IMG/VR virus record: IMGVR_UViG_3300044631_002202
Coordinates: 1-35,295 of that record
Length of the DNA stretch: 35,295 nt
Strand: one strand, 5' to 3'
From: a virus
The notes under the pieces were generated by a model. That model searched no databases and was not told the origin of the DNA. It saw nothing but the letters and a program-made list of their open reading frames with translations. Position 1 is the first letter of the stretch. The number at the start of each line of letters is the position of its first letter. This document shows, in pieces, positions 128 to 35,295 of this stretch. The translations under genes and the position numbers were made by a program.

Positions 128-248
128 CGTGCAGTGGTGGTGCGCTGGTGAACTCTACACGCGGCTCCAAAGGGCCAAGCGCAAGATCGAGGACTTGGAG
201 GCGAACGACAAAACTGAGCCACCCGAAACGCAAGCCCAAGACCTATGA
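1..248 (+). CDS. Small acidic cassette protein, 3' part (continues from 35021)
   Basis: This is the 3' part of a gene whose start is the ATG at 35021. Joining 35021-35168 to 1-248 gives an intact 131-residue reading frame. I do not recognise the family. The protein is acidic, has no membrane segment and ends in a charged, helix-prone tail (RAKRKIEDLE). Its C-terminus contains ANDK, which is encoded by the 5' half of the attC-like palindrome at 200-325 and recurs in the next gene. The TGA stop overlaps the ATG of the next gene (ATGA). It is the first of three small genes between terminase and the structural genes; the flanking palindromes suggest cassette acquisition. Function unknown. Confidence 0.75.
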   Translation, partial: TGDYIVKIEYGEEEMSFRAGTDGESHGQDYDGTIIDMTTTDHVQWWCAGELYTRLQRAKRKIEDLEANDKTEPPETQAQDL

Positions 249-325
249 GCACCAACCAAACGCCACCGAAGCCCGAGACAGTGCAGGCCAGCCCGCAAGG
301 GTTGGCTCCAGTGCCATTGTTCGCC
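200..325 (+). repeat. attC-like imperfect palindrome 2
   Basis: The outer boxes GGCGAAC (200-206) and GTTCGCC (319-325) are perfect 7-nt complements, in the position of integron R'' and R' boxes (AAC...GTT). An unpaired spacer follows. The inner arm 213-224 (ACTGAGCCACCC) pairs with 299-312 (GGGTTGGCTCCAGT), leaving two extrahelical bases in the 3' arm. The stop of the upstream gene and the start of the downstream gene lie in the 74-nt terminal loop. This is the R box/spacer/L box/variable loop layout of attC sites. Folding and functionality are inferred. Confidence 0.6.
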
Positions 326-583
326 GTTGGAGATCGTGTGATAGCAACCTGTGAACTAACTCAACCTCCATCCGATGAGTTGCCCGGACAGCACTTTTGC
401 GATGTCGGGGATGAGTTGGAAATCCGACAGGTCCGCCCAAACGGCTGGTATGTCGTCGCTCACCCTTGGCGTGAAGCAGGAGCGGGTTTTTTGATTCGCC
501 ACCGGGAACTTGATTCGGCGAACGACAAGGATCAGGCGACCGATGGGGCGCATAACCAGAATCAACCAACGAAGTCCAAGTAG
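245..583 (+). CDS. Small cassette protein, possible SH3-like fold
   Basis: A 112-residue protein starting at an ATG that overlaps the preceding TGA. The core (residues about 26-90) has FAVGDRV, a conserved-looking VGDELEI and NGWYVVAHP, a pattern seen in small SH3-like beta barrels; this is only a fold suggestion. The first 25 residues are encoded by the 3' half of one attC-like palindrome and the last 20 (from ANDKDQ) by the 5' half of the next, so only the centre is cassette-specific. There are no catalytic motifs or membrane segments. The TAG stop is one base before the next ATG, suggesting co-translation. Function unknown. Confidence 0.7.
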   Translation: MSTNQTPPKPETVQASPQGLAPVPLFAVGDRVIATCELTQPPSDELPGQHFCDVGDELEIRQVRPNGWYVVAHPWREAGAGFLIRHRELDSANDKDQATDGAHNQNQPTKSK

Positions 584-657
584 TATGAGCGAAGAAATCC
601 AAAATGAAAAGTCGGGCAGCAGCGCCCCATCTGGTCGCCTGCATCCGATTGTTGTGC
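517..657 (+). repeat. attC-like imperfect palindrome 3
   Basis: Outer boxes are GGCGAAC (517-523) and GTTGTGC (651-657), conserving the AAC/GTT ends. The inner stem has 17 pairs: GGCGACC plus GATGGGGCGC (535-551) against GCGCCCCATC plus GGTCGCC (622-639), with one extrahelical T at 632. Eighteen bases separate the AAC from GATGGGGC, the same distance as in the copies at 11737 and 34956. The loop holds the stop of one gene and the ATG (585) of the next. The loop sequence also resembles that of the 11737 copy. Confidence 0.65.
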
Positions 658-887
658 CTTGGGTTGGCAAGCTGAAGCATGACCGCCAAGTGTTTGCTGA
701 TTGGGGCATGATCCGCGATGAGGCGGGCGATCTGATATTCAAAGTAGCAGTCCCACATTGTTTATCGGAGGAGGATTTGGGAAGATACCGCCGCGAGAAA
801 ATCGACCCAACACAGGTCCGCGTCGATGCGCTGCTAAACGCTCTCAATGGGCACAACAGTGATTCTACAACTGGAGTCACATATTGA
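585..887 (+). CDS. Small cassette protein
   Basis: A 100-residue protein. ATG 585 was chosen over an upstream in-frame ATG because it follows the TAG at 581-583 and sits in the same palindrome loop position as the other cassette starts. Its first 20 residues (MSEEIQ..., SSAPSGRLHP) closely resemble the start of the protein at 11805 because both are encoded by the same kind of palindrome. The centre (VPWVGKLKHDR, then a DLGRYRREK helix) is not recognised. No clear attC-like palindrome follows its stop, so the array seems to end here or its last site has decayed. Function unknown. Confidence 0.65.
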   Translation: MSEEIQNEKSGSSAPSGRLHPIVVPWVGKLKHDRQVFADWGMIRDEAGDLIFKVAVPHCLSEEDLGRYRREKIDPTQVRVDALLNALNGHNSDSTTGVTY

Positions 888-972
888 AACGCCCCGCGAC
901 ACTTTTAGACACTAGGCAAACGCCGCTGATCCGTTCGTATATTGCCCTCCCTTTTGACTCCCGCCACCCGGT

Positions 973-2989: not shown

Positions 2990-3460
2990 ATGCCCGACCA
3001 CACACCCCTCTCCCAAAAGCTCGAATCCGCGCTCGCCGCCTACCTCACCGGCGTGAAGTCCAGCATGAGCCTCTCGACCACGCAGGTGATCACCGCGCAT
3101 CAATCCGCCGCCGCGGTCGATTCGCCGCGCATCGTGGTGCAGTGCCAGTCCATGTCCCCGCGTCTCATCTCCATGCCTGGCGTCATGGACGTCGTGCTGA
3201 ATGTTCACTACATCTCCGACCTCGAAACCACCGCCGAAACGCACAAGACCGAGGCCGCCAAGCTCATATCGTGGCTGTGCGACACCGAGACGATCCGCAC
3301 CGCGCTGAACATCGCCACGCCCGACACGCGCACCGTCACCGGACTGCACATTTACCTCCTCCAATGGGCTGGCGTCGAAATGACCGCCGACCCCGACCGC
3401 GCCCAGCATCAAACCACCTGCACCCTCAACCTCATCGCCATGGGCAAAGACCTCGTCTGA
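2990..3460 (+). CDS. Putative tail terminator protein
   Basis: A 156-residue alpha/beta protein: an N-terminal helix (LSQKLESALAAYL), a central strand region with MDVVLNVHYISD, a helix with AAKLISWLCDTE and a last strand with TCTLNLIAMG. This arrangement fits lambda U/HK97 gp10-type tail terminators, which cap the growing tail tube. It lies directly before the major tail protein candidate. Its TGA stop is embedded in a TCTGATTG repeat unit, so the spacer repeat supplies the stop codon. Confidence 0.45.
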   Translation: MPDHTPLSQKLESALAAYLTGVKSSMSLSTTQVITAHQSAAAVDSPRIVVQCQSMSPRLISMPGVMDVVLNVHYISDLETTAETHKTEAAKLISWLCDTETIRTALNIATPDTRTVTGLHIYLLQWAGVEMTADPDRAQHQTTCTLNLIAMGKDLV

Positions 3461-3500
3461 TTGTCTCCCTGTCCGATTGTCTCCCTGTCCCATTGTCCCC
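3455..3500 (+). repeat. GTCTGATTGTC-type octamer spacer
   Basis: Five imperfect units of TGTCTGAT/TGTCTCCC/TGTCCGAT follow the 2990 gene and contain its stop codon. Confidence 0.7.
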
Positions 3501-3981: not shown

Positions 3982-4401
3982 ATGTCCGAGCCCTCCGGCA
4001 CCTACTCCGCGCGTCCGCATTCCATCAACGACACGCGTCTGTTCGCCGCTCTCACCGCGCTCGGCATCGCGCCCATCGACGGGCCGAAACTCTACACCGG
4101 CGAGACCGCCGACGGCTCCCCGCGTCAGACCTGGTATCTGGAGCGGGAGAGCCGCTGCGGCAAATACAAGACCGCCGAAATGATCGCCGCGTGGAATGAT
4201 CCCAAGTGGCACGAAGGCAACCCCGAGCACCCGCTCGCCTACATCCGCTGCGCGTTCATGAACCACCACGCCGCCGTCGATCACATCAAACAGCAATGCG
4301 GCCTCTACGTCGTCCGCGGCCGCGGCGGGAAGTTTGGCCTCGTGTCGAGCGACCTCGACAAGAAGACCACAGACACCATTCTGCGCACGCTCGGGAGGTG
4401 A
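3982..4401 (+). CDS. Hypothetical protein
   Basis: A 139-residue soluble protein that I do not recognise. It has a central WYLERESRCGKY segment and a C-terminal region RGGKFGLVSSDLDKKTTD, with several aromatic and basic residues that could suit nucleic-acid or protein binding. It lies between the major tail and gpW-like genes in the late operon, so a minor structural or assembly role is possible. No Shine-Dalgarno is visible. Confidence 0.5.
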   Translation: MSEPSGTYSARPHSINDTRLFAALTALGIAPIDGPKLYTGETADGSPRQTWYLERESRCGKYKTAEMIAAWNDPKWHEGNPEHPLAYIRCAFMNHHAAVDHIKQQCGLYVVRGRGGKFGLVSSDLDKKTTDTILRTLGR

Positions 4402-4489
4402 GACAATCGGACAATCAGACATTGGACAATGAGACCATGAGCATCTGCCTGTCTCATTGTCTGCCTGTCTGATTGTCCCATTGTCTCCC
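4401..4489. repeat. Octamer spacer in inverted configuration
   Basis: The first half carries GACAATCRGACAATCAGAC units and the second half the complementary TGTCTCATTGTCTG units, so the transcript could fold into a long imperfect hairpin between the 3982 and 4527 genes. No U-tract follows, so it is not a standard intrinsic terminator. Confidence 0.6.
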
Positions 4490-4526
4490 GCCACCTCCCG
4501 CCCCCGTTTGACTCACGCGCCCGCGT

Positions 4527-11380: not shown

Positions 11381-11385
11381 AGAGT

Positions 11386-11475
11386 GGGACAATCAAACAA
11401 GCAGACAATCAGACCATGAGACAATCAGATTCTCCCCGTCTCCCCGTCTCATTGTCTGATGGTCCCATTGTCCCT
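11386..11475. repeat. Octamer spacer in inverted configuration
   Basis: GACAATCAGACCATGAGACAATCAG-type units are followed by complementary TGTCTCATTGTCTGATGGTC-type units, giving a possible long hairpin. It resembles the spacer at 4401-4489. Confidence 0.6.
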
Positions 11476-11508
11476 CCCTCCGCTCCTCTCCACCCTTACC
11501 TCACCGTC

Positions 11509-11742
11509 GTGCATGCAGGCGATCACTCCACCGGCCTCGATTTCTACGACTGCCGTGAGCACCAGTGGCAACTCTCCCACGCCCACGGCACTCCGATCTG
11601 CACCCTATGGCCCCGAGACACCCGCACCCGTCACCTCACGCTTACTCGCCCCCAAGCCCAACGCCTCGCCAGCTACCTCTTCCACTTCCACCAGCACGCC
11701 TCACTGCCCCGCCACCGGCACGAGCTGGAATGGCATATTTAA
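11509..11742 (+). CDS. Hypothetical protein, intact copy of a duplicated gene
   Basis: A 77-residue protein if started at the GTG after the spacer; a much earlier in-frame GTG at 11374 would translate the repeats and seems unlikely. It ends YLFHFHQHASLPRHRHELEWHI-like (His-rich), and nearly the same ending recurs at 12126-12222 (YLSHFHQHAMLP...EYHI), so the gene was once duplicated in tandem. Its TAA stop lies inside the left box of an attC-like palindrome. Function unknown. Confidence 0.45.
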   Translation: MHAGDHSTGLDFYDCREHQWQLSHAHGTPICTLWPRDTRTRHLTLTRPQAQRLASYLFHFHQHASLPRHRHELEWHI

Positions 11743-11875
11743 CGTCAATGATCACGCGCCCGATGGGGCACGTGAAGAGAATCAACCCAAAAAATTCAAG
11801 TGATATGGCCGAACAAAATCAAACATCGAAGTCCGACAGCAGCGCCCCATCTGGTCGCGTGCATCGGCGTTGCGC
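11737..11875 (+). repeat. attC-like imperfect palindrome 4
   Basis: The left box ATTTAAC (11737-11743) fits the integron consensus RYYYAAC; the right box is GTTGCGC (11869-11875). Eighteen bases after AAC comes GATGGGGC (11762-11769), pairing with GCCCCATC (11844-11851); flanking CGCG and CGCG also pair with small bulges. The ATG of the next gene (11805) is in the 74-nt loop. The sequence closely resembles palindrome 3 at 517-657. Confidence 0.6.
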
Positions 11876-12104
11876 AGTATGCGGCTGCTCAAAACTCTTT
11901 TACGGCTCGAAGCCCAAGAATGACTCCGGGCCAGCGGATCATGTCATGCACTGGAACACTTGGGAGAGTAAAGGATTAACTCCGCCGCACGAGGTGCAAA
12001 GAGGCAGTCAGCCGCGATATGTCTGCGCCGGTGGAGGCAAGCCATACGTCGAGAGTGCGCCGAACGACAAGGATCTGGCGTGGCGGGCGCTGGACTCTGA
12101 ATAA
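11805..12104 (+). CDS. Small cassette protein with Cys-rich motif
   Basis: A 99-residue protein between two attC-like palindromes. ATG 11805 is in the loop of the first. The N-terminus (MAEQNQ..., SSAPSGRVH) matches the protein at 585 because it is palindrome-encoded; the C-terminus holds NDKD like the other cassette genes. The unique centre has CAVCGC followed later by HVMHW and a YVCAGGG segment, suggesting a small zinc-binding site, unproven. It is inserted between an intact gene and the tail fragment of that gene's duplicate. Confidence 0.65.
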   Translation: MAEQNQTSKSDSSAPSGRVHRRCAVCGCSKLFYGSKPKNDSGPADHVMHWNTWESKGLTPPHEVQRGSQPRYVCAGGGKPYVESAPNDKDLAWRALDSE

Positions 12105-12132
12105 ACCAACAAAGCAGCCCTCGCCGTTGCCA
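12059..12132 (+). repeat. attC-like palindrome 5 (short, diverged)
   Basis: It opens with GCCGAAC then GACAAGGATCTGGCG, nearly identical to palindrome 3 (GACAAGGATCAGGCG at 524-538), and closes with GTTGCCA (12126-12132). The arms around 12075-12092 and 12112-12134 pair imperfectly. The loop is much shorter than in the others and holds only the upstream stop. It marks the right end of the inserted cassette. Confidence 0.45.
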
Positions 12133-12222
12133 GCATCGCAAAGCGCGCCTCCTACCTCAGTCACTTCCACCAGCACGCCATGCTCCCGCACGCCGCCAGC
12201 ATGATCGAATATCACATCTAAC
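12126..12222 (+). pseudogene. 3' fragment of a duplicated gene
   Basis: In one frame this reads AVASIAKRASYLSHFHQHAM and then a tail ending EYHI and TAA. It parallels the last 30 residues of the gene at 11509 (SYLFHFHQHASLP...LEWHI). The fragment has no start of its own and begins right at the right box of palindrome 5, as if a cassette had replaced the first part of a second gene copy. Confidence 0.6.
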
Positions 12223-12258
12223 TCATCACTCTTCACCCCTAACCCCTAACCCTTCACG
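12218..12258 (+). repeat. TAACCCC heptamer spacer
   Basis: TAACTCATCACTCTTCACCCCTAACCCCTAACCC-type units precede the gene at 12265, continuing the late-gene spacer family. Confidence 0.7.
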
Positions 12259-12264
12259 CATTCC

Positions 12265-12567
12265 ATGCGCTCCCTCTCCGCCGCCTCCTACGACCTCCTC
12301 CAACGGTCCAACTTCTTCACCCTGCTCGTCAGCAACGACCAGCGCGACCGTTTCCACGCGGCGGTCATGTGGCGCATCGTCCATTCGGCCTCGCTGGACG
12401 TCGTCACTGCCATCACGCCCGAGGATCTCGCAAAGCAGGCCAAGGTGGATTTGTGGCACGTCTCCCCTTCCGACCTCGCCCCCGTCTTCACCGTGATCAA
12501 TGAATCGCTGACCGCCGTGAACGCCGCCTTCGTCACCACTGAATCCGGCGACGTCCCTTTGACCTAG
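12265..12567 (+). CDS. Tail assembly chaperone, short form
   Basis: A 100-residue protein just before the tape-measure gene, where lambda G lies. It is helical and acidic toward the end, as expected of the chaperone that coats the tape measure during tail-tube assembly. The heptamer CCCTTTG (12555-12561) sits just before the TAG with CCT and TTG in the zero frame (X XXY YYZ), so a -1 slip would continue translation in the frame that runs on to 12803. Identification rests on position and the frameshift layout. Confidence 0.55.
   Translation: MRSLSAASYDLLQRSNFFTLLVSNDQRDRFHAAVMWRIVHSASLDVVTAITPEDLAKQAKVDLWHVSPSDLAPVFTVINESLTAVNAAFVTTESGDVPLT
12555..12561 (+). other. Candidate -1 ribosomal frameshift site
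   Basis: CCCTTTG reads C CCT TTG in the upstream frame, matching X XXY YYZ. The -1 frame is open from 12543 to 12803, overlapping the first ORF by 25 nt. After slippage the protein continues Asp-Leu-Asp-Asp-Ser. Slippage of a Leu TTG codon to TTT is less favourable than classic AAA-type sites, so efficiency is uncertain. Confidence 0.5.
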
Positions 12568-12870: not shown

Positions 12871-14031
12871 ATGTCCGTCCAAGTCCAAATCGGTGCCGAT
12901 GTCACGCAGTTCGACGCCGTCGTCGCCACACTCCCCGACAAAGTCGCGCGTTCGTCGCAGCAGATGACCCGCGCGAACGGCGGCCTCATGCGCAGCCTCG
13001 GCGGTGTCTCCATGCAGGTGCAGGACATCGCCGTGCAGCTCCAGATGGGCACGCAGGCATCGACGGTGCTGGCGCAGCAGGGCTCGCAGCTTTTGTCCGC
13101 GTTTGGGGCCGGTGGTGCGATTGCCGGTGGTGTCATCGCCATTGGCGGCGCGTTTCTGGCGATGGCGGACAATTCGCGCAAGGCTTTCAATGAAGCCGCA
13201 CGCGGTCATGATGATCTCATGAGCCGTTTCCAGCGCGGTTTTCTTGGGGGCGCGGGTGATGTGGCGGAGCAGACCGCCATCGTCACTCAGCAGGTCGATA
13301 AACTTGCATCGAAGATTCGAGACATTTGGGCAGACAGGTCTGCTGCAGATGTGATCGCCGAAACCTTTGGCGGCCCCAGCTTTGACGACAAAGTCAACCA
13401 AATGGCCTACCAGCAGGAGGATTTGGAGGCATTGCAAAAACGCGCCGACAATGAAATCATCGCCCGTGGTGCGCAGGAGTTGCAAATCATCAAGGCACAG
13501 ATTGCCGGGGAAAAAGAAAAAGCCGCGATTTTGCAGCATCAGCTCAACCTGATGCGCGAAGAGGAAAAAATCAACGCCTCCGCCGCTTCACCTGCGGCAA
13601 AAAACGTCATGATGAATTTGGCCCGCGCACGTTCGGATCTGTCTTTCAACCAGCTCAACTTGCAGGGAGCCACCCCCACCGGCCCAAATCTCCTCGGCCG
13701 CGTCACCGGCTTTTTTGGCGCGGCGATGACTCAGATGGCCCCGACCATCGACGCGATCTCGAACCGTCTCAAAGAACGCGCCCAGCAGAGCCTCTCCCGC
13801 ACGCAGGCCTTCGCCGGTGCACTCGGCAACCTGCGCGGCGACATGGACACCAGCACCGGCCGCAGCGCCTTCAATCCGCTCCGTGCCGACGGCAGCAAGC
13901 AGCTCTCCGAAATGGCCCGCCAAACCGCCGCCCTCCGCCGCGTCGCCCAAACCGGCGACAAACAAACCAGCCTCCTCCAGTCCATCGACAACACCATCCG
14001 CCGCCTTAACCTGATTCCAAAATACTCATAA
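12871..14031 (+). CDS. Tail tape-measure protein, short
   Basis: A 386-residue protein with the signature QVQDIAVQLQMG...STVLAQQGSQLLSAFG near residues 50-75, typical of lambda-like tail length tape-measure proteins. A hydrophobic Gly/Ala segment follows (80-98), then long helices with a coiled-coil region (180-235) and a helical C-terminus. Tape measures set tail length; the usual rule of about 1.5 angstrom per residue would give a tail of roughly 58 nm, shorter than lambda's. A TTTGAC box lies 16 nt before the ATG. Confidence 0.85.
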   Translation: MSVQVQIGADVTQFDAVVATLPDKVARSSQQMTRANGGLMRSLGGVSMQVQDIAVQLQMGTQASTVLAQQGSQLLSAFGAGGAIAGGVIAIGGAFLAMADNSRKAFNEAARGHDDLMSRFQRGFLGGAGDVAEQTAIVTQQVDKLASKIRDIWADRSAADVIAETFGGPSFDDKVNQMAYQQEDLEALQKRADNEIIARGAQELQIIKAQIAGEKEKAAILQHQLNLMREEEKINASAASPAAKNVMMNLARARSDLSFNQLNLQGATPTGPNLLGRVTGFFGAAMTQMAPTIDAISNRLKERAQQSLSRTQAFAGALGNLRGDMDTSTGRSAFNPLRADGSKQLSEMARQTAALRRVAQTGDKQTSLLQSIDNTIRRLNLIPKYS

Positions 14032-14082
14032 CCCATCACCCCTAACCCATAACCCTTAACTCTTAACCTCTAACTCCCACCC
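14029..14082 (+). repeat. TAACCCN heptamer spacer
   Basis: About seven units (TAACCCAT, TAACCCT, TAACTCT, TAACCTC) fill the gap between tape measure and the next tail gene. Confidence 0.8.
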
Positions 14083-14841
14083 ATGCCCGCCACCCACCGC
14101 GGCACCGTCGCCACCCTCCAAGCTGAAGCCACGACCTCGATCTCCCGCGAGACCATCTCGCACATCGAGACTGTGACCATGAGGCGCGAGGACGCCCAGG
14201 ATCGCGGCAATCTGCGCCTGCTCGGCGAGTTCAAGACCGTCAACGACATCACCACAACGCTGTCCAACATCGAGATCCGCTACCTCCCCGGCGAGCTCGC
14301 CGAGGTGCAATACACGTATTCGGGCGGCACCGACAACACCCAAGTCAACCCCGGCGACCTCACCGGCGCCGTCGGCATCGGCGGCAGCTCGGAGACCTGG
14401 GAGCTGGATGTGAAGCTGCGCACCGTGTCACTGATCCGGCATCCTCGCTACGCCACCGTTTCAGATTCGGACAAGCGAGTGCTCGCCGCCATGATCCAGT
14501 TCGGCCTCATCGACAGCGAAGGCAATGAGATCCGCCGATTCCTTTCCAATAGCGGACTGGCGAATCAATGCGCCAACCTGATCGAGCTGGAAGGCATCAC
14601 CAGCTACGAGGCAGCCTTTTATTCGCTGCGCCGCACGCAGTTCAATTCGTCCGACGTCCCGCTGCCTCGCATCGGCAAAATCAGCGACCCTGGCGCGCCT
14701 GCGCCGCCGATCGCTGCCGGTGAAAACTGGCTCGTCATCGGCTACCGCGGGAAATATGCCGGCAACAAATGGACCGAGCTCGTCACCGAGTGGGAAAGCT
14801 CCGGCGGCGGTCTCGGCTGGGACAACGGCCTCTACTCCTAG
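14083..14841 (+). CDS. Putative distal tail protein
   Basis: A 252-residue protein directly after the tape measure, where distal-tail and baseplate-hub genes lie. It is beta-rich in the first half (LGEFKTVND, IEIRYLPGELAEVQYTY) and has no enzyme motif. The end is Gly-rich (ESSGGGLGWDNGLYS). I do not recognise the family; a tail-tip role is inferred from position. Confidence 0.45.
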   Translation: MPATHRGTVATLQAEATTSISRETISHIETVTMRREDAQDRGNLRLLGEFKTVNDITTTLSNIEIRYLPGELAEVQYTYSGGTDNTQVNPGDLTGAVGIGGSSETWELDVKLRTVSLIRHPRYATVSDSDKRVLAAMIQFGLIDSEGNEIRRFLSNSGLANQCANLIELEGITSYEAAFYSLRRTQFNSSDVPLPRIGKISDPGAPAPPIAAGENWLVIGYRGKYAGNKWTELVTEWESSGGGLGWDNGLYS

Positions 14842-14893
14842 TATCCGTTAACCCCTAACTCATAACCCCTAACTCCTAACCCTTAACCCCCTC
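14840..14893 (+). repeat. TAACCCN heptamer spacer
   Basis: Six or more TAACCCC/TAACTCA/TAACTCC units lie before the ATG at 14895. Confidence 0.8.
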
Positions 14894-14894
14894 C

Positions 14895-15473
14895 ATGTCC
14901 CTCTCCTCCCCTCTCCCCCGACCGCGCTCCGGCGAGACCATCGCCGCGGCGCACATCACCGCGCTGTCGGAGGCGATCCGGGACCGCACGCCCATCTCCT
15001 CGCCATCCATCCGCGTCGTGCCGCGCACAGGCGGATTCGCACTGGAGACGATCACGAAGGGCGGCGGCATGGGCGGCACCTTTCGCGGGAACTGGTCCCC
15101 GAGCGCGGGTGATGACAACACCGTCGTCGTCAGCGGCGGCACCATTTACGACAGCCTCGGCGCGAAAATCGTGCCGGAGGCCACATTGAACGCGCCAAAC
15201 GACACGCTCTACTACATCTATCTCCAGGTGAACTTTACCGCGAACACCGTGGACGGCTACGTCGTCGGCGGCAGCATCAGCAGCGGGGTGATCAACATCA
15301 ACACCACCGGCTGCCCCGTGAACACGAACACCGCCGCCTACATCCTCCTCGCCACCTGGAATGGCGACGGCGGCGGCCTCGAAGAACGTTACGCATGGTT
15401 TCCGTTTAGCTTTCAGTTCAACCAAAAAGACGCCACCCCGGGCGATGTCGCTGCTAATTTCTGGATCTCGTAA
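14895..15473 (+). CDS. Putative tail protein
   Basis: A 192-residue protein starting with a Pro/Arg-rich, polar segment (SGETIAAAHITALSEAIRDR), which resembles the oligomerising N-terminus of some tail-fibre adaptor proteins, followed by a Gly/Asn/Thr-rich beta region. No membrane segment or enzyme motif is seen. It forms a run with the next two genes, separated by 3 and 15 nt, that leads to the fibre gene. Function inferred from position only. Confidence 0.45.
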   Translation: MSLSSPLPRPRSGETIAAAHITALSEAIRDRTPISSPSIRVVPRTGGFALETITKGGGMGGTFRGNWSPSAGDDNTVVVSGGTIYDSLGAKIVPEATLNAPNDTLYYIYLQVNFTANTVDGYVVGGSISSGVININTTGCPVNTNTAAYILLATWNGDGGGLEERYAWFPFSFQFNQKDATPGDVAANFWIS

Positions 15474-23738: not shown

Positions 23739-23796
23739 TACCACCCGGCGGGGAAGCGACGGGACTTTTTCAGACAGGGAGACAACCAGACAACCA
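23739..23796 (+). repeat. 58-bp direct repeat, left copy
   Basis: Starts TACCACCCGGCGGGGAAGCG and runs into GACAACCA octamers. It matches 24679-24736 with two mismatches. CCCG...CGGG followed by TTTTT within it resembles a weak terminator. The two copies bracket the ParB-like gene at 23836. Confidence 0.8.
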
Positions 23797-23828
23797 GACA
23801 ACCAGACAACCAGACAACCAGACAAGGA
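23781..23828 (+). repeat. GACAACCA octamer array
   Basis: Five GACAACCA units and a GACAAGGA unit in tandem, in the forward polarity of the early half of the genome. The final AAGGAG is 8 nt before ATG 23836 and probably acts as its ribosome binding site. Confidence 0.85.
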
Positions 23829-23835
23829 GACACTT

Positions 23836-24984: not shown

Positions 24985-25205
24985 AGGCGAGAGAGTCGTT
25001 TTTTTCACAGCCGATGACGAGGTATCGGCGGACGCAGCGGTTTGGGGATTACCTGATGCTGCTGTGCGTTTGGCTGGGTGCGTGCTGGCTGGGATGGGTG
25101 ATTTGCACGGCCATCCTGGCGAAACGGGTGATGGAGGTGGAGAGTGGAGTGTTCATCGGACAATCAGACAATCAGACCATGAGACAAGGGGAGGTGAAGC
25201 CATGA
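24981..25205 (+). CDS. Small membrane protein with repeat-encoded tail
   Basis: A 74-residue protein with one hydrophobic helix (LMLLCVWLGACWLGWVICTAIL) after a basic N-terminus. Its last 15 residues (GQSDNQTMRQGEVKP) are encoded by the GACAATCA octamer array, so the spacer repeat has become coding. A perfect AAGGAGGT precedes its ATG; its stop overlaps the next ATG. Function unknown. Confidence 0.5.
   Translation: MKARESFFSQPMTRYRRTQRFGDYLMLLCVWLGACWLGWVICTAILAKRVMEVESGVFIGQSDNQTMRQGEVKP
25159..25195 (+). repeat. GACAATCA octamer array inside coding sequence
   Basis: GACAATCA x2, GACCATGA and GACAAGGG in tandem. It encodes the C-terminus of the 24981 protein and ends in the AAGGGGAGG Shine-Dalgarno of the 25202 gene. 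Confidence 0.8.
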
Positions 25206-26095
25206 GTGTGCAGCGTGGTGATGGGTTAGGGGTTAAGGGTGATGGGCTGACGGTGCTGCCGGTGGGTGCGCTGAGCGGGCGGCATCATGAGCTGCCGAGG
25301 GCGAATGCGGAGCGCATGACAGGTGCCCAGGCGGCGGAAATGATGACGATGAACGATTCGGAGTGGATTCTGGCGGCGGCGATGCTGGACTCGCTGACGG
25401 ATGATCTGGCGATCACGCACGCGGCGAAGTGGTGGACGCTGAATCCGGATGAGATGCAGGGGAAGTGCGGGGAGGCGGATCTGCTGCTGAAGGAGCTGCA
25501 CAGCGATGGCATCGCGATGCTGATGGACATGGTGGCGGCGGCGACGGCGGGTCGTGTGCAGATGCGGCTGGGCTGGCTGCTGCGGGTCGCGAAGGCGAAG
25601 GCGAGGCATCGCAGTCTGATCTCGGCGCTGAGCTTTGAGAGTGTGAGGCATCGCATCCGGCTCGTGGAGACGGGGCTGCAAGCGCGGATCAAGGTGGACT
25701 CGGACGCGGTGTCGGGATCGCCGAGGTATCAGCGGGAGCGGTTTCGCGCACGCAAGCAGGCGGGGCTGTGCCGTGAGTGCTCCAGCCAGGTGGAGCCGGG
25801 GCATTCCCGCTGTCCGGAGTGCCGCAGGATTCACCGGCTGAGCGAGGAGAAGCGCAAGGAGCAACGGCGGAAGCTGCCGGCGGGTGCGATCTCGCTGCGC
25901 GAGTGGATGCTGCGCATGGCGGACAAGCTGCACCTGACCATCAAGGGCGTGCAAAGCCGCATGACGCGGGGCGCGATCGTGACGCCGCCGGTGGTGTATC
26001 GGAATCACACGCGGGTGTATGTGATGCCGCTGGAGGGTGGGGCAGGACAGGGAGACAATCAGACCATCAGACAAGGAGAAAGGAGGGCGGCGTGA
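25202..26095 (+). CDS. Zinc-ribbon protein, probable DNA-binding
   Basis: A 297-residue protein if started at the ATGA overlap. CRECSSQVEPGHSRCPEC around residue 190-207 is a four-cysteine zinc ribbon. After it come basic helices (EEKRKEQRRKL) and a segment ISLREWMLRMADKLHLTIKG that resembles an HTH, followed by TPPVVYRNHTRVYVMP. The first 20 residues include a GGGTTA-type repeat and the last 15 an octamer array, so both ends may be recent additions. Early operon position suggests DNA binding; role unknown. Confidence 0.5.
   Translation: MSVQRGDGLGVKGDGLTVLPVGALSGRHHELPRANAERMTGAQAAEMMTMNDSEWILAAAMLDSLTDDLAITHAAKWWTLNPDEMQGKCGEADLLLKELHSDGIAMLMDMVAAATAGRVQMRLGWLLRVAKAKARHRSLISALSFESVRHRIRLVETGLQARIKVDSDAVSGSPRYQRERFRARKQAGLCRECSSQVEPGHSRCPECRRIHRLSEEKRKEQRRKLPAGAISLREWMLRMADKLHLTIKGVQSRMTRGAIVTPPVVYRNHTRVYVMPLEGGAGQGDNQTIRQGERRAA
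26053..26080 (+). repeat. GACAATCA octamer array
   Basis: GACAATCA, GACCATCA and GACAAGGA units end the 25202 gene and lead into the AAAGGAGG Shine-Dalgarno of the 26095 gene. Confidence 0.75.
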
Positions 26096-27789: not shown

Positions 27790-28976
27790 GCCAAAAATAC
27801 ATCAAATGGGGCGATCTCACGAAGGTCGTGGAATGGGACAAGAATCCGCGGCGTGATGCGCTGGCGTCCACCGAGGAGCTGCAAGAGTCGCTGCGGCGGG
27901 TGGGGCTGCAAGATGCGATTCACGTCTGGCAGCGGGGCGCGAACGCGAAGGAGCTGCTGCTTTTGAAAGGGCATCGCCGAGTGAATGCGATGCGTGTGCT
28001 CGGGTGGAAGGGATGCGCGATGGTGGTCCATGATTTCGCCGATGAGCAGCAGGCGTTTTTGTTTCTCCTGCAAGACCACGGGCACACGGTGTCGCTCAAT
28101 ATCGACGAGCGCATTTTGGCGGCCGAGAACGGCAGCGCGCTCGGCATCGAGCTGGGGAAGCTGGCGGATGCGCTGGGGGTCAGTCATGAGCGCGTGCAGC
28201 TCTGGCTCGATCTGGCGGGCAATCTGCCTGAGTCGGCCCGCGAGGCGATGGCGAGCGGTGTGCTGGGCATGAACACGGCCGAGATGGTGCTGCGTGTGGC
28301 GCGTGATGTGGGCGAGGATGCGGCCGCCGCGGCGGTGCAGATGGTGCTGCACGATCCTGTGAGCGGCGAGCCGATGAGCGGTGCGATGGCGCGCGCGGCG
28401 ATCGAGGCAAAGTATCTTCAGCCGAAGCGGTGGCATGCGGAGTGGATCGAGCGCATGGGCGCGATGGCGAAGACGCATCCGGTGTCGGCGGGTTATGTGT
28501 TCGAGCCGTTTGAAAAGCGCGGGCACTTCTGCCAAGGCGAGTCGGGCCAGCCGTGGCGGGCCTATGAATACGCGGATGGATTCATGCCTGGCGATGCGAA
28601 GGGTCGCCGCTGGGGCGAGGTTGCTTGTGAGCTGGGCGTGGCGGTGCATGTGGTCGCCGCGCCTAGATGCGTGGATGGCTGCGTTATGCTGGTAGAGCGC
28701 GAGCTCATCGAGACCGGGCTGGACATGGCGCGGGATGGCGCGGGTGGCAGTGGCAAGGCAGCGCGGCGCACCGAGCCGAAGCCGGATGCGCGCGGCTGGT
28801 GGCGGGCGAGCGAGACGCTGCCGGATGATCAGATCACCGTGCTGGTGTGGGGCGGTGATGAGGTGCTGCTCGGCTATCATGAGGGCGAGGACTGGTGGGA
28901 CTCGTCACACGCGGCCCGACATCCGATCGACGTGACGCATTGGCAGGATGTGCCGGCGGAGCCGGTGGGGGTGTGA
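27786..28976 (+). CDS. ParB-like protein with C-terminal DUF551 domain
   Basis: A 396-residue protein. N-terminal ParB domain: DKNPRRDALASTEELQESL, then LLLKGHRRVNAMR (GHRR 62-65), the CTP/nuclease motif of ParB proteins. Residues about 120-145 (LGKLADALGVSHERVQLWL) form a KorB/Spo0J-type HTH. The C-terminus (340-392) reads GWWRASETLPDDQITVLVW ... VTHWQDVP, the DUF551 pattern often seen in phage proteins. A ParB-DUF551 fusion is unusual. It may bind phage DNA near the replication genes; no ParA partner is present. Confidence 0.7.
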   Translation: MSQKYIKWGDLTKVVEWDKNPRRDALASTEELQESLRRVGLQDAIHVWQRGANAKELLLLKGHRRVNAMRVLGWKGCAMVVHDFADEQQAFLFLLQDHGHTVSLNIDERILAAENGSALGIELGKLADALGVSHERVQLWLDLAGNLPESAREAMASGVLGMNTAEMVLRVARDVGEDAAAAAVQMVLHDPVSGEPMSGAMARAAIEAKYLQPKRWHAEWIERMGAMAKTHPVSAGYVFEPFEKRGHFCQGESGQPWRAYEYADGFMPGDAKGRRWGEVACELGVAVHVVAAPRCVDGCVMLVERELIETGLDMARDGAGGSGKAARRTEPKPDARGWWRASETLPDDQITVLVWGGDEVLLGYHEGEDWWDSSHAARHPIDVTHWQDVPAEPVGV

Positions 28977-29009
28977 CGACCGAAGCCCAGACACGGGCGA
29001 GAAAAAGCT

Positions 29010-29318
29010 ATGAATGCAACCACGACTCCAACGCCCGTCGTCTGCGGCGCTCTTGTTCGGCCTCTTCGAGCCAAGGTGATCGCCGCATATTTCAGCGCGT
29101 TACCAGCCATTGATCGCCTCCGCGAGATGCTGCGGCATTGCTGCGCGACGGACATTCTCAATGCGGGCGGAAATGTGCGCGATGTGCAAAGCCTGCTCGG
29201 GCAGGCGTCATTGGAGACAACGATGATCTATGTGCATGGCGACGGCGAGCGTGTGCGGAGTCCGCTCGATGCGATGACGGTGCCGATAAATGTGATTCCC
29301 TTTCAGCAAGCGGCATGA
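29010..29318 (+). CDS. C-terminal fragment of an integron-integrase-like tyrosine recombinase
   Basis: A 102-residue protein. Residues 36-90 match the C-terminus of integron integrases: LREMLRHCCATDIL, GGNVRDVQSLLGQ, TTMIYVHGDG and especially VRSPLDAM, the ending GVRSPLDAL of IntI proteins. Tyr74 (MIYVH) is the nucleophile position and Arg42 the box II arginine; box III His is Gln65 and the first arginine domain is missing, so it cannot act alone. Its stop overlaps the primase ATG (ATGA), which argues that it is translated. It may be a decayed remnant or a regulator. Confidence 0.65.
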   Translation: MNATTTPTPVVCGALVRPLRAKVIAAYFSALPAIDRLREMLRHCCATDILNAGGNVRDVQSLLGQASLETTMIYVHGDGERVRSPLDAMTVPINVIPFQQAA

Positions 29319-33248: not shown

Positions 33249-34960
33249 CGGCCACATTTCCAACATTGCGCGACGAACTGCGCACGATCTGGCGTCCGCG
33301 GCCGAAGGCGGACATTTTGTCCTGGGTGCGGTCGAACGTTCACATGTCGGAGCGGTTCACCAATCGCCCCGGCCTTTACGACCCCGACTTCACCGCTTAC
33401 CTGATCCCGTGCCATCGCTGGTTCGGCGACTCGGACGTGCGCACCATCTCCTGTCCCAAGGGTGCGCAGCTCGGCTTCACGACTTTCCTCGCGAATGCGC
33501 TCATGTGGGCCATCTCCGAAGATCCCGGCCCCGCGCTTTTCCTCACCTCGACCACCGACAACGCACAAAGCTGGTCCGAACGCGAATGGCTGCCGCGTCT
33601 GCGTGACTGCCCTCGCATCAAAGAGCTTACGCCCCGCGGTCGGGACGCCATCAAAAAGCTCGAGCAAGCCTTCCTCACGATGACCGTGCGCCTCACCGGC
33701 GCGCAAAGCGAAAACAACCTCGCTTCCCGCCCGATTCGTTACTTGCTCAATGATGAAGTCGATAAATGGCCGCCGGGTTTCCTCGGCATCGCCGAGGCGC
33801 GCACGCTGTCCTATCGCGGCGTCGATAAAATCGTGCGCGGCAGCACCTGCACCACCGACGACGGCCCGATCTGGTCGTCGTGGGTGAATTCCACGCAGCA
33901 CCTGTGGCACGTGCAATGCCCGCACTGCCACGAGTGGCAGGTGATGGACTTCTTCAAGTCGATCAAATGGCCGGCACATCACCGCGATCTCGTCGGCCGC
34001 TGGGACGTCGAGGCCGTGCGGCGGGACACTTGGGCCGAATGCCTCGTCAATGGCTGCAAATGGGACCCATCCTTGAAAAATGAGATCGTGCGCCGTGGCG
34101 AAGCCGTCGCCACGAATGACCGCGCCTCACCGTCCGACAAAGGCATTCACCTGCCGTCGCTGCTCTCGCCGTTCCTGAGCTTCGGCGACCTCGCCGCGCT
34201 GTGGCTGCGCCGCAAAGATCAGCCCGGCGGGAAGCCCGACTTCTACAATCAATACCTCGGCCTTCCGTGGTCGCATGAAGAGTTCACCGTGAGCGAGCAG
34301 AAGGTGCTCGACTGCCGCGCGCTCGGTGACAATGCCTACATGATTAGCGAATGCCCCGTTGATCCCGTGGATTTCACTTTTACCGCCGACCCGGGCGAAC
34401 GCGAAACACACTGGAGCGTAGAAGCGACGGCTGCCGATGGATCAGCCTATGTCGTCGATTATGGCACTGTCCACACGATTGAGGATGTGTTGCCAGTGCT
34501 CGATCGCGAGTGGATCATCAAAGGCACCACGAAACGCGCCCGCATTGCCATTGGCGGCATCGACTCAGGCTACGCCACCGAACGCGTTTATCGTCTCTGC
34601 ATGGCGAGCCGCGGCCGACTCTGGCCGCTGAAAGGATCGGCCGCCGAGTTTGGCAAACCCGTCGATGTCTCGCGCATCCCGACCTATCCTGCCCTCGCGC
34701 TCTACACCTACGTCGATTTTTACTTCAAGTCCTCGCTCTACATCGACTCGATCTCCCGCCGAGCGCAGCCGTTTTGGTGGCTGCCCGCAAACTCAGGGCA
34801 CGACATCATCGCAGGTCATTCGGGTCAAGAGCTGCGCGCCAAACAAACCGCGCAACGCAGCATCCGCTTCTGGAAACCCGTCGCGAATGACCATTTCGGC
34901 GACTGCACGAAAATGCACCGCGTCATCCGCGAAGTGCGCAAGCAGATTTATCAGAGGTGA
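33245..34960 (+). CDS. Terminase large subunit, GpA family
   Basis: A 571-residue packaging motor and nuclease. The Walker A-like motif CPKGAQLGF (70-78) and Walker B RYLLNDEVDKWP (Asp170, Glu171) belong to the GpA type of lambda terminase. The C-terminal nuclease part has FTADPGERETHW and GIDSGYATERVY, and later NDHFGDCTK. A CPHCHEWQ zinc-like motif is near residue 226. It overlaps TerS by ATGA. GpA-type terminases usually cut cohesive ends. Length is a little under lambda gpA (641). Its stop lies in the left box of an attC-like palindrome. Confidence 0.9.
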   Translation: MTATFPTLRDELRTIWRPRPKADILSWVRSNVHMSERFTNRPGLYDPDFTAYLIPCHRWFGDSDVRTISCPKGAQLGFTTFLANALMWAISEDPGPALFLTSTTDNAQSWSEREWLPRLRDCPRIKELTPRGRDAIKKLEQAFLTMTVRLTGAQSENNLASRPIRYLLNDEVDKWPPGFLGIAEARTLSYRGVDKIVRGSTCTTDDGPIWSSWVNSTQHLWHVQCPHCHEWQVMDFFKSIKWPAHHRDLVGRWDVEAVRRDTWAECLVNGCKWDPSLKNEIVRRGEAVATNDRASPSDKGIHLPSLLSPFLSFGDLAALWLRRKDQPGGKPDFYNQYLGLPWSHEEFTVSEQKVLDCRALGDNAYMISECPVDPVDFTFTADPGERETHWSVEATAADGSAYVVDYGTVHTIEDVLPVLDREWIIKGTTKRARIAIGGIDSGYATERVYRLCMASRGRLWPLKGSAAEFGKPVDVSRIPTYPALALYTYVDFYFKSSLYIDSISRRAQPFWWLPANSGHDIIAGHSGQELRAKQTAQRSIRFWKPVANDHFGDCTKMHRVIREVRKQIYQR

Positions 34961-35091
34961 ACGCTCAATCTCTGCCAACCCTGGGGCACGACCAGGACAA
35001 CACGACAAAGGCCCAATAACATGACCGAAGCAAGCACACTAACAATGACCCAAGACCAGCCCCAGAGGTTGGCAGCAGAGCCGGGTTGTCC
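34956..35091 (+). repeat. attC-like imperfect palindrome 1
   Basis: Outer boxes GGTGAAC (34956-34962) and GTTGTCC (35085-35091). Eighteen bases after AAC lies CTGGGGC. CTGCCAACC plus CTGGGGC (34972-34987) pairs with GCCCCAG plus GGTTGGCAG (35059-35075), 16 pairs with one extrahelical A at 35066. The large terminase stop is in the left box and the next ATG (35021) in the 71-nt loop. Confidence 0.6.
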
Positions 35092-35295
35092 TCCCGAATG
35101 GCTGGAAGAGATAGTCGAAACTATCGGCATCACCGATGGCGTCGATCTTGTTGAATGGCACCTAGACCAGACGGGCGACTACATCGTCAAAATCGAATAC
35201 GGCGAGGAAGAAATGAGCTTCCGCGCGGGCACAGATGGCGAGAGCCACGGCCAAGACTACGATGGCACAATCATCGACATGACCACGACTGATCA
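35021..35295 (+). CDS. Small acidic cassette protein, 5' part (continues at 1-248)
   Basis: The 5' part of the 131-residue protein completed at 1-248. ATG 35021 lies in the loop of the palindrome at 34956-35091; the N-terminal 24 residues are encoded by that palindrome's 3' half. The unique part begins WLEEIVETIGITDG. No Shine-Dalgarno is visible. Positions 35169-35295 duplicate 1-127, so a single copy gives the real gene. Confidence 0.75.
   Translation, partial: MTEASTLTMTQDQPQRLAAEPGCPPEWLEEIVETIGITDGVDLVEWHLDQTGDYIVKIEYGEEEMSFRAGTDGESHGQDYDGTIIDMTTTD
35169..35295. repeat. Terminal direct repeat, right copy
   Basis: Identical to positions 1-127. See left copy; most likely an assembly overlap of a circular genome rather than physical terminal repeats. 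Confidence 0.9.

Follow-up and report, generated by a model that had tools for sequence, protein, structure and literature searches.

A probable integron-type cassette, inverted relative to its attC-like site, at a phage gene's stop codon

Here, we analyzed a 35,295-nucleotide stretch of phage DNA, IMG/VR record IMGVR_UViG_3300044631_002202, which we call the window. The segment we call cassette 4, made up of the attC-like palindrome attC_b and the small gene ORF4, is probably an integron-type cassette that an integron integrase placed, inverted, on the stop codon of the phage gene X and that was later imported together with a divergent X allele (X') by phage recombination. At the point of entry, the plus strand would read TAA/C (the slash marks the crossover), and its complement, G/TTA, would serve as the integrase core. 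Cassettes would thus be joined at minus-strand G/TT cores, each of which reads on the plus strand as a stop codon followed by C. The cassette gene would run opposite to the usual direction, with its start codon in the attC loop, where the incoming upstream frame would also end. Inserted in this way, successive cassettes would be translationally coupled to one another within the phage operon. Finally, a segment with X', cassette 4, and a further attC stub would have replaced most of the resident X, leaving its 3' tail. The coordinates of all features are listed in Table 1.

Table 1. Features of the window and their coordinates
Feature	Position	Strand	Description
Phage genome			35,168 bp plus a 127-bp end repeat (35169-35295 = 1-127)
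attC1	34960-35087	-	At the terminase gene stop codon (TGAA/C)
Cassette-1 ORF	35021-35295, on through the end repeat to 248	+	131 aa; start within attC1
attC2	204-321	-	Found by inspection; arms alone fold weakly and do not beat shuffles, z about +1
Cassette-2 ORF	245-583	+	112 aa; start within attC2; ATGA overlap with cassette-1 ORF
attC_a	521-653	-	Third main-array site; ssDNA fold z -5.0/-4.6
Cassette-3 ORF	585-887	+	100 aa; start within attC_a
AAC, right end of main array	855-857	+	Followed by phage sequence common to L088, L089, and the empty site of L090
Candidate target site			30 bp, AACAGTGATTCTACAACTTGAGTC
Gene X'	11488-11742	+	84 aa counted from the conserved part, protein ending EWHI; divergent allele of a phage gene found in single copy
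attC_b	11741-11871	-	attC-like palindrome AAC...GTT; canonical top strand opposite to ORF4
Cassette 4	11743-12064	+	Mobile unit; bounds AA/C at 11742/11743 and AA/C at 12064/12065
ORF4	11805-12104	+	99 aa, Cys-rich (CAVCGC); start codon ATG 11805 within the attC_b loop
attC_c	12063 to about 12137-12144	-	Half of an attC-like site, with AACGACAAGGATC as left arm and GCCAGCATC as right L box
3' tail of resident X allele	12146-12222	+	5' side cut; stop TAA 12219-12221
Downstream phage gene	12265-12567	+	96-98% aa identity in relatives with an empty X site
attC5	28975-29057	-	Tentative, low-scoring, degenerate attC-like site (GAC replaces AAC), located on the stop codon of another phage gene
ORF with integron-integrase C-terminal fragment	29010-29318	+	Starts in the attC5 loop

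The record encodes a terminase, a portal, a Clp-like protease, a tape measure protein, and a phage-type tyrosine integrase. Because of the latter, the phage is probably temperate. No tRNA genes were found in the window. The tape measure, ORF3, and ORF4 had no match among INPHARED phages, and searches of X', ORF2, ORF3, and ORF4 against Pfam and PHROGs returned no family above the cut-off. In two relatives, L004 and L005, a central part of the tape measure gene (13172-13674) is swapped between flanks that are ~90% identical; this is another mosaic segment of this genome. Spacers built of 7-base units (TAACCCC/TAACTCA type) lie between late genes at 2921-2984, 12219-12267, 14018-14098, 14831-14908, and elsewhere. 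A second kind, built of 8-base units (GACAATCA / TCTCATTGTC type), is present at 1318-1359, 3448-3497, 4394-4492, 11381-11479, 23781-23830, and 25159-25208; some of these form long inverted pairs and are not attC sites.

The ends of cassette 4 were located by comparison with an otherwise different viral contig, L143 (3300042905_005722). This contig is 91% identical to the window over 11741-12070 and unrelated to it on either side of this stretch, and the divergence starts exactly at the AAC triplets at 11741 and 12063. On the left, where the window has the end of X' (...ATTTAAC), L143 has a gene that is putatively Xre-like (...GGGAAC). At the right end, GCCGAAC is common to the two, which then differ. 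Since the shared unit diverges at both AAC triplets, cassette 4 begins and ends at AA/C. The right boundary is also common to contig L141; contig L142 is truncated, as is L141 on its left side. These two and L143 are the three further viral contigs with ORF4 homologues, and ORF4 was not found in a sample of 387 Verrucomicrobiota genomes, searched without a positive control. Several parts of the first-pass annotation agree with this picture. It had a small gene ending in the left box of a palindrome, and the X' stop codon (TAA 11740-11742) indeed overlaps the left box AAC at 11741-11743 of attC_b. It had a cassette gene coming next, which is ORF4, and it took the cassette as mobile and inserted outside the main array, which the recurrence of the unit in L143 between unrelated flanks supports. 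It had placed the insertion at G/TT 11869 or 12126, and the ends of the shared unit show that neither position is correct.

The arms of attC_b pair with two bulges and give a hairpin-scan score of 16.5-18.3. As single-stranded DNA, its minus strand folds better than shuffled sequences at z -2.5 and its plus strand at z -1.7. The bulge alignment is ambiguous, as another gap placement gives the opposite polarity class; the polarity was settled because the crossover could be located in L143. Adjoining the right end of the cassette, attC_c retains half of a similar structure. Its AACGACAAGGATC at 12063 pairs with GCCAGCATC at about 12129-12137. The first-pass annotation saw a complete second palindrome here, ahead of the tail; the L boxes are present, but there is no GTT box, the GTT at 12126 is not the end of a right box, and the fold is no better than shuffles (z about -0.3). 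We tentatively presume that attC_c is the remnant of a fifth cassette.

A hairpin scan anchored on AAC/GTT detects attC1, attC_a, and attC_b, all with AAC...GTT ends and paired R and L boxes, and at its threshold of 13 gave zero matches in three shuffles. The same scan without the anchor was unselective, with shuffles reaching 16.5. Long spacer palindromes at 4394 and 11381 were rejected as attC sites because they are GACAATCAGAC-type repeats, and a MAFFT alignment of host attC sites was set aside because it misplaced the arms. The attC cores and extrahelical bases of the phage sites are as described in PMC12901181. Two extrahelical bases occur at fixed places on one arm, and the same places are used in L133, a verrucomicrobial integron with a row of attC sites beside a full integron integrase gene (intI). 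Of the core GTTRRRY / RYYYAAC, the GTT is kept at the window sites and RRRY is matched by attC_b alone. None of the seven L133 sites adjoining the full intI matches GTTRRRY either, so this core does not discriminate in this group.

The phage attC-like sites are inverted relative to their genes. In the usual, though not obligatory, cassette order, the gene comes first and its attC follows in the same direction, whereas here the attC precedes and opposes its gene. This order follows from the crossover at the AAC left of the attC and is independent of the bulges. A comparison of bulges gives the same polarity. In L133, the cassette ORFs are on the strand opposite to intI; read along the intI strand, it is the right arm that carries the bulges. 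The right arm carries them in the phages as well, yet there the ORFs lie on that same strand.

The main array lies behind the terminase gene and continues across the end repeat. With attC1, attC2, and attC_a present and intI absent nearby, it has the at least two attC sites without intI that define a CALIN. Compared across relatives, this one phage site is either empty or filled with different cassettes, all joined at AA/C. The terminase gene ends ...GGTGAA/C, and attC1 comes next in both the window and L087. At the same place, L088 has other genes, including a putative C5-methylase (PF00145, E = 8.8e-4, below the cut-off), and L089 has a tRNA-like stretch together with a gene for a Mom homologue (PF25680, E = 8.3e-32). 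This stretch (L089 2871-2943) is a tRNA-like gene with an odd anticodon loop (ARAGORN: tRNA-???) and lies within the Mom-encoding cassette ORF. The window, L088, and L089 are the three records that reach the right end, and they rejoin at AA/CAGTGATTC-ACAACT-GAGTCA. L090 and L091 (76% terminase identity) have an empty site, GGCTAA/CAGTGAATCCACAACTTCAGTC, and joining the two main-array flanks of the window yields the empty-site sequence. The core of the empty L090 site is GTTAGCC. Among these relatives, sequence comparison thus points to mobile units with the crossover at G/TT. Even the empty site retains the ~30 bp to the right of the main array (AACAGTGATTC-ACAACT-GAGTCA; window 855-900; L088 3796, L089 3546, L090 2435), a conserved stretch that could be an attI-like landing site.

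Cassette 3 has a similar exact end. Its body ends ...CACAAC in the window, in L021 (two copies), and in L024, and each diverges right after AAC. Body 3 of L024 is only partly the same gene (48 aa, the N-terminal part), so the common end there is the short motif GGTCACAAC. Compared with L021, ORF3 shows coding constraint, with 9, 9, and 25 differences by codon position.

The cassette ORFs cross their junctions in one reading phase. We collected 18 ORFs that start in or near an attC-like site, one phage gene included, from six records (the window, L021, L024, L088, L089, and L143). Sixteen read the next AAC as a codon, and the other two end with TAA on AAC; by chance, one third would be in phase. 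We give no P value for this count, because the ORFs are not independent (relatives of cassette-3 and ORF4 recur among them), their starts were picked by eye, and they were counted after the pattern had been noticed. X' and the terminase also end on AAC. In 10 cases, the stop codon overlaps the next ATG or lies within a few bases of it (ATGA, TAGTATG, TGATATG, TAATG, TTAATATG), an arrangement that would suit translational coupling.

The history of gene X is harder to read. The window has two homologous X endings ~480 bp apart, and the first-pass annotation explained them by a tandem duplication of X, with a cassette inserted into the second copy and replacing its start. The similarity itself is real: a profile built from X proteins matches the tail fragment at 12105-12218 with E = 2.9e-13. 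Over the last 77 nt, the tail is identical to X of the relative L004 (IMG/VR 3300031857_019403) at 76 positions and X' at 51. Relatives with an uninterrupted X do exist: L004, L005, and L006 (the latter pair near-identical to each other at this site) have one X each, between the same neighbors on either side and with no second copy. All three relatives that span the site are therefore against a duplication, and among 27 phage records searched for X, a partial second copy was found in the window only. Resident alleles resemble each other closely (L004 versus L005, 231/255; L028 versus L004, 147/156 over the part present), and X' is farther from them than they are from one another, with 199/255 nt and 77% aa identity to L004 over the whole gene. 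The tail thus belongs to the resident allele, and X' is the outlier. A recent duplication would not leave this pattern, which points to phage mosaicism instead. The crossovers also lie outside the second copy, and replacement of its start by an integrase is not supported. The junction that cuts X, at about 12138-12146, is not a GTT site and looks like ordinary phage recombination. We regard the tandem duplication as distinctly improbable.

On a plain reading, X' and cassette 4 would have been imported together from another phage, and the tail would be what is left of the resident gene. The alternative closest to it is that the cassette entered in place, at the TAA/C of X in the window's own lineage, that X was later partly duplicated or deleted so that the tail remained, and that X' diverged where it stands. 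X' matches L004 at 87% over its first 126 nt and diverges increasingly toward the 3' end, so the imported piece may be smaller, perhaps the 3' part only, or X' may have diverged in place. The resident X target core, GTTAGAT, also fits GTTRRRY. However, the spacer upstream of X' is likewise unlike L004 (47% over 11440-11499, with flanks mostly 90-100%), which favors an imported segment, and insertion in place still requires the duplication step. We consider it unlikely, though worth keeping in mind. An assembly artefact, in which the X region would be a chimera of two co-occurring phages, must also be weighed, as the mosaic junctions are known from a single metagenomic assembly; the near-identical contig L020 stops short of them. 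Against this, the record is closed, with a 127-bp end repeat, and the cassette unit recurs in L143 with clean ends. A chimera is very improbable.

A different objection concerns the palindromes, which might be phage intergenic elements (terminators or translational couplers) exchanged by homologous recombination without any integrase. Stop and start codons do sit in the palindrome loop in the mRNA sense, the phages have no full intI, and phages recombine readily, with shared arms that could act as homology. Such exchange does not account for boundaries exactly at AA/C in unrelated contexts, for bulges placed as they are in attC sites next to a full intI, or for the intI fragment that adjoins one palindrome site. 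We judge this explanation improbable and favor integration of the inverted cassette by an integron integrase, followed by phage recombination at X.

No match above the TIGR02249 cut-off, and hence no full intI, was found in the phage records searched, and a complete integron, with intI and attI beside the array, is not present. Since these records have no full intI, we infer that an integrase acted in trans, probably one supplied by an integron-bearing host. A full intI was found in 107 of the 387 sampled Verrucomicrobiota genomes, and the same set gave one distant terminase match, at 32%. A verrucomicrobial link of the phage would be one of analogy. A bacterial source of the cassettes was not found: the pattern AAGTCSGRCAGCAGCGCCCC had 16 matches in genome contigs, tblastn of the cassette ORFs was negative in all 16, and the four that were inspected (L029, L030, L035, and L043) had no attC context. 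The window does contain a C-terminal intI-like fragment of 53 residues, at 29127-29276, which matches TIGR02249 positions 263-315 (40.8 bits, E = 3.4e-12). The fragment covers the catalytic Tyr region (...VRSPLD) and stands right behind the degenerate site attC5. L024 has a similar ...RVRSPLDTLADLPANVVPFQQ stretch behind its cassettes, with the last part present twice.

Phage CALINs are known. Qi et al. 2023 (PMC9892861) list 21 phages that carry attC sites and cassettes without an integrase, some with DNA methyltransferases; of the six phage attC sites tested in that paper, IntI1 recognized five. Going by the accessible text of that paper, the window is like these phages in having attC sites and cassettes without an integrase, and differs in that its genes are inverted to the attC, start in the loop, and keep one reading phase across the junction, as well as in an exchange site that is empty or variously filled in close relatives; no inverted design with the start in the attC was found in that text. 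Similarly, a limited literature search found no paper on start codons within attC sites combined with a fixed crossover phase. The inverted, phase-locked design therefore looks new. The window is like sedentary chromosomal integrons such as that of L133 in its one-gene units with AAC/GTT ends, the extrahelical bases of the L boxes, and the G/TT crossover. L133 has the usual gene direction and attC sites of 52-63 nt, whereas the window has the reverse direction, main sites of 118-133 nt, and an ATG in the loop. Reportedly, in work by Loot et al. from 2024, cassettes can enter genomes outside attI at simple cores (attG insertion). As far as that account goes, the window is alike in using simple cores outside attI; its targets are phage stop codons (TAA/C, TGAA/C), and several phages reuse one such site. 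Phages also carry accessory genes between their late genes, as morons and anti-restriction cargo, and the Mom homologue and putative C5-methylase in the relatives of the window are of this kind. Unlike morons, the cargo here is bounded by attC-like recombination sites.

Integrons have mostly been treated as bacterial gene stores, and rows of attC sites in phages have been reported mostly as borrowed pieces. With the same site empty in some relatives and variously filled in others, with a Mom homologue or a putative DNA methylase among the contents, phage cassette turnover becomes directly observable. The window supplies sites and strands for a test with IntI, in which the plus strand is predicted to be recombinogenic. 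More tentatively, and with slightly less than even confidence, we suggest that there is a pool of phage-adapted inverted cassettes, with the start inside the attC, a fixed phase, and overlapping stop and start codons, such that every cassette that lands on a phage stop codon would become a coupled late-operon gene. This pool would be common to different phages, include anti-restriction genes, and use the host integrase. If the inverted, phase-locked design is true, a cassette would need no Pc promoter for immediate expression, being translated within the phage operon.
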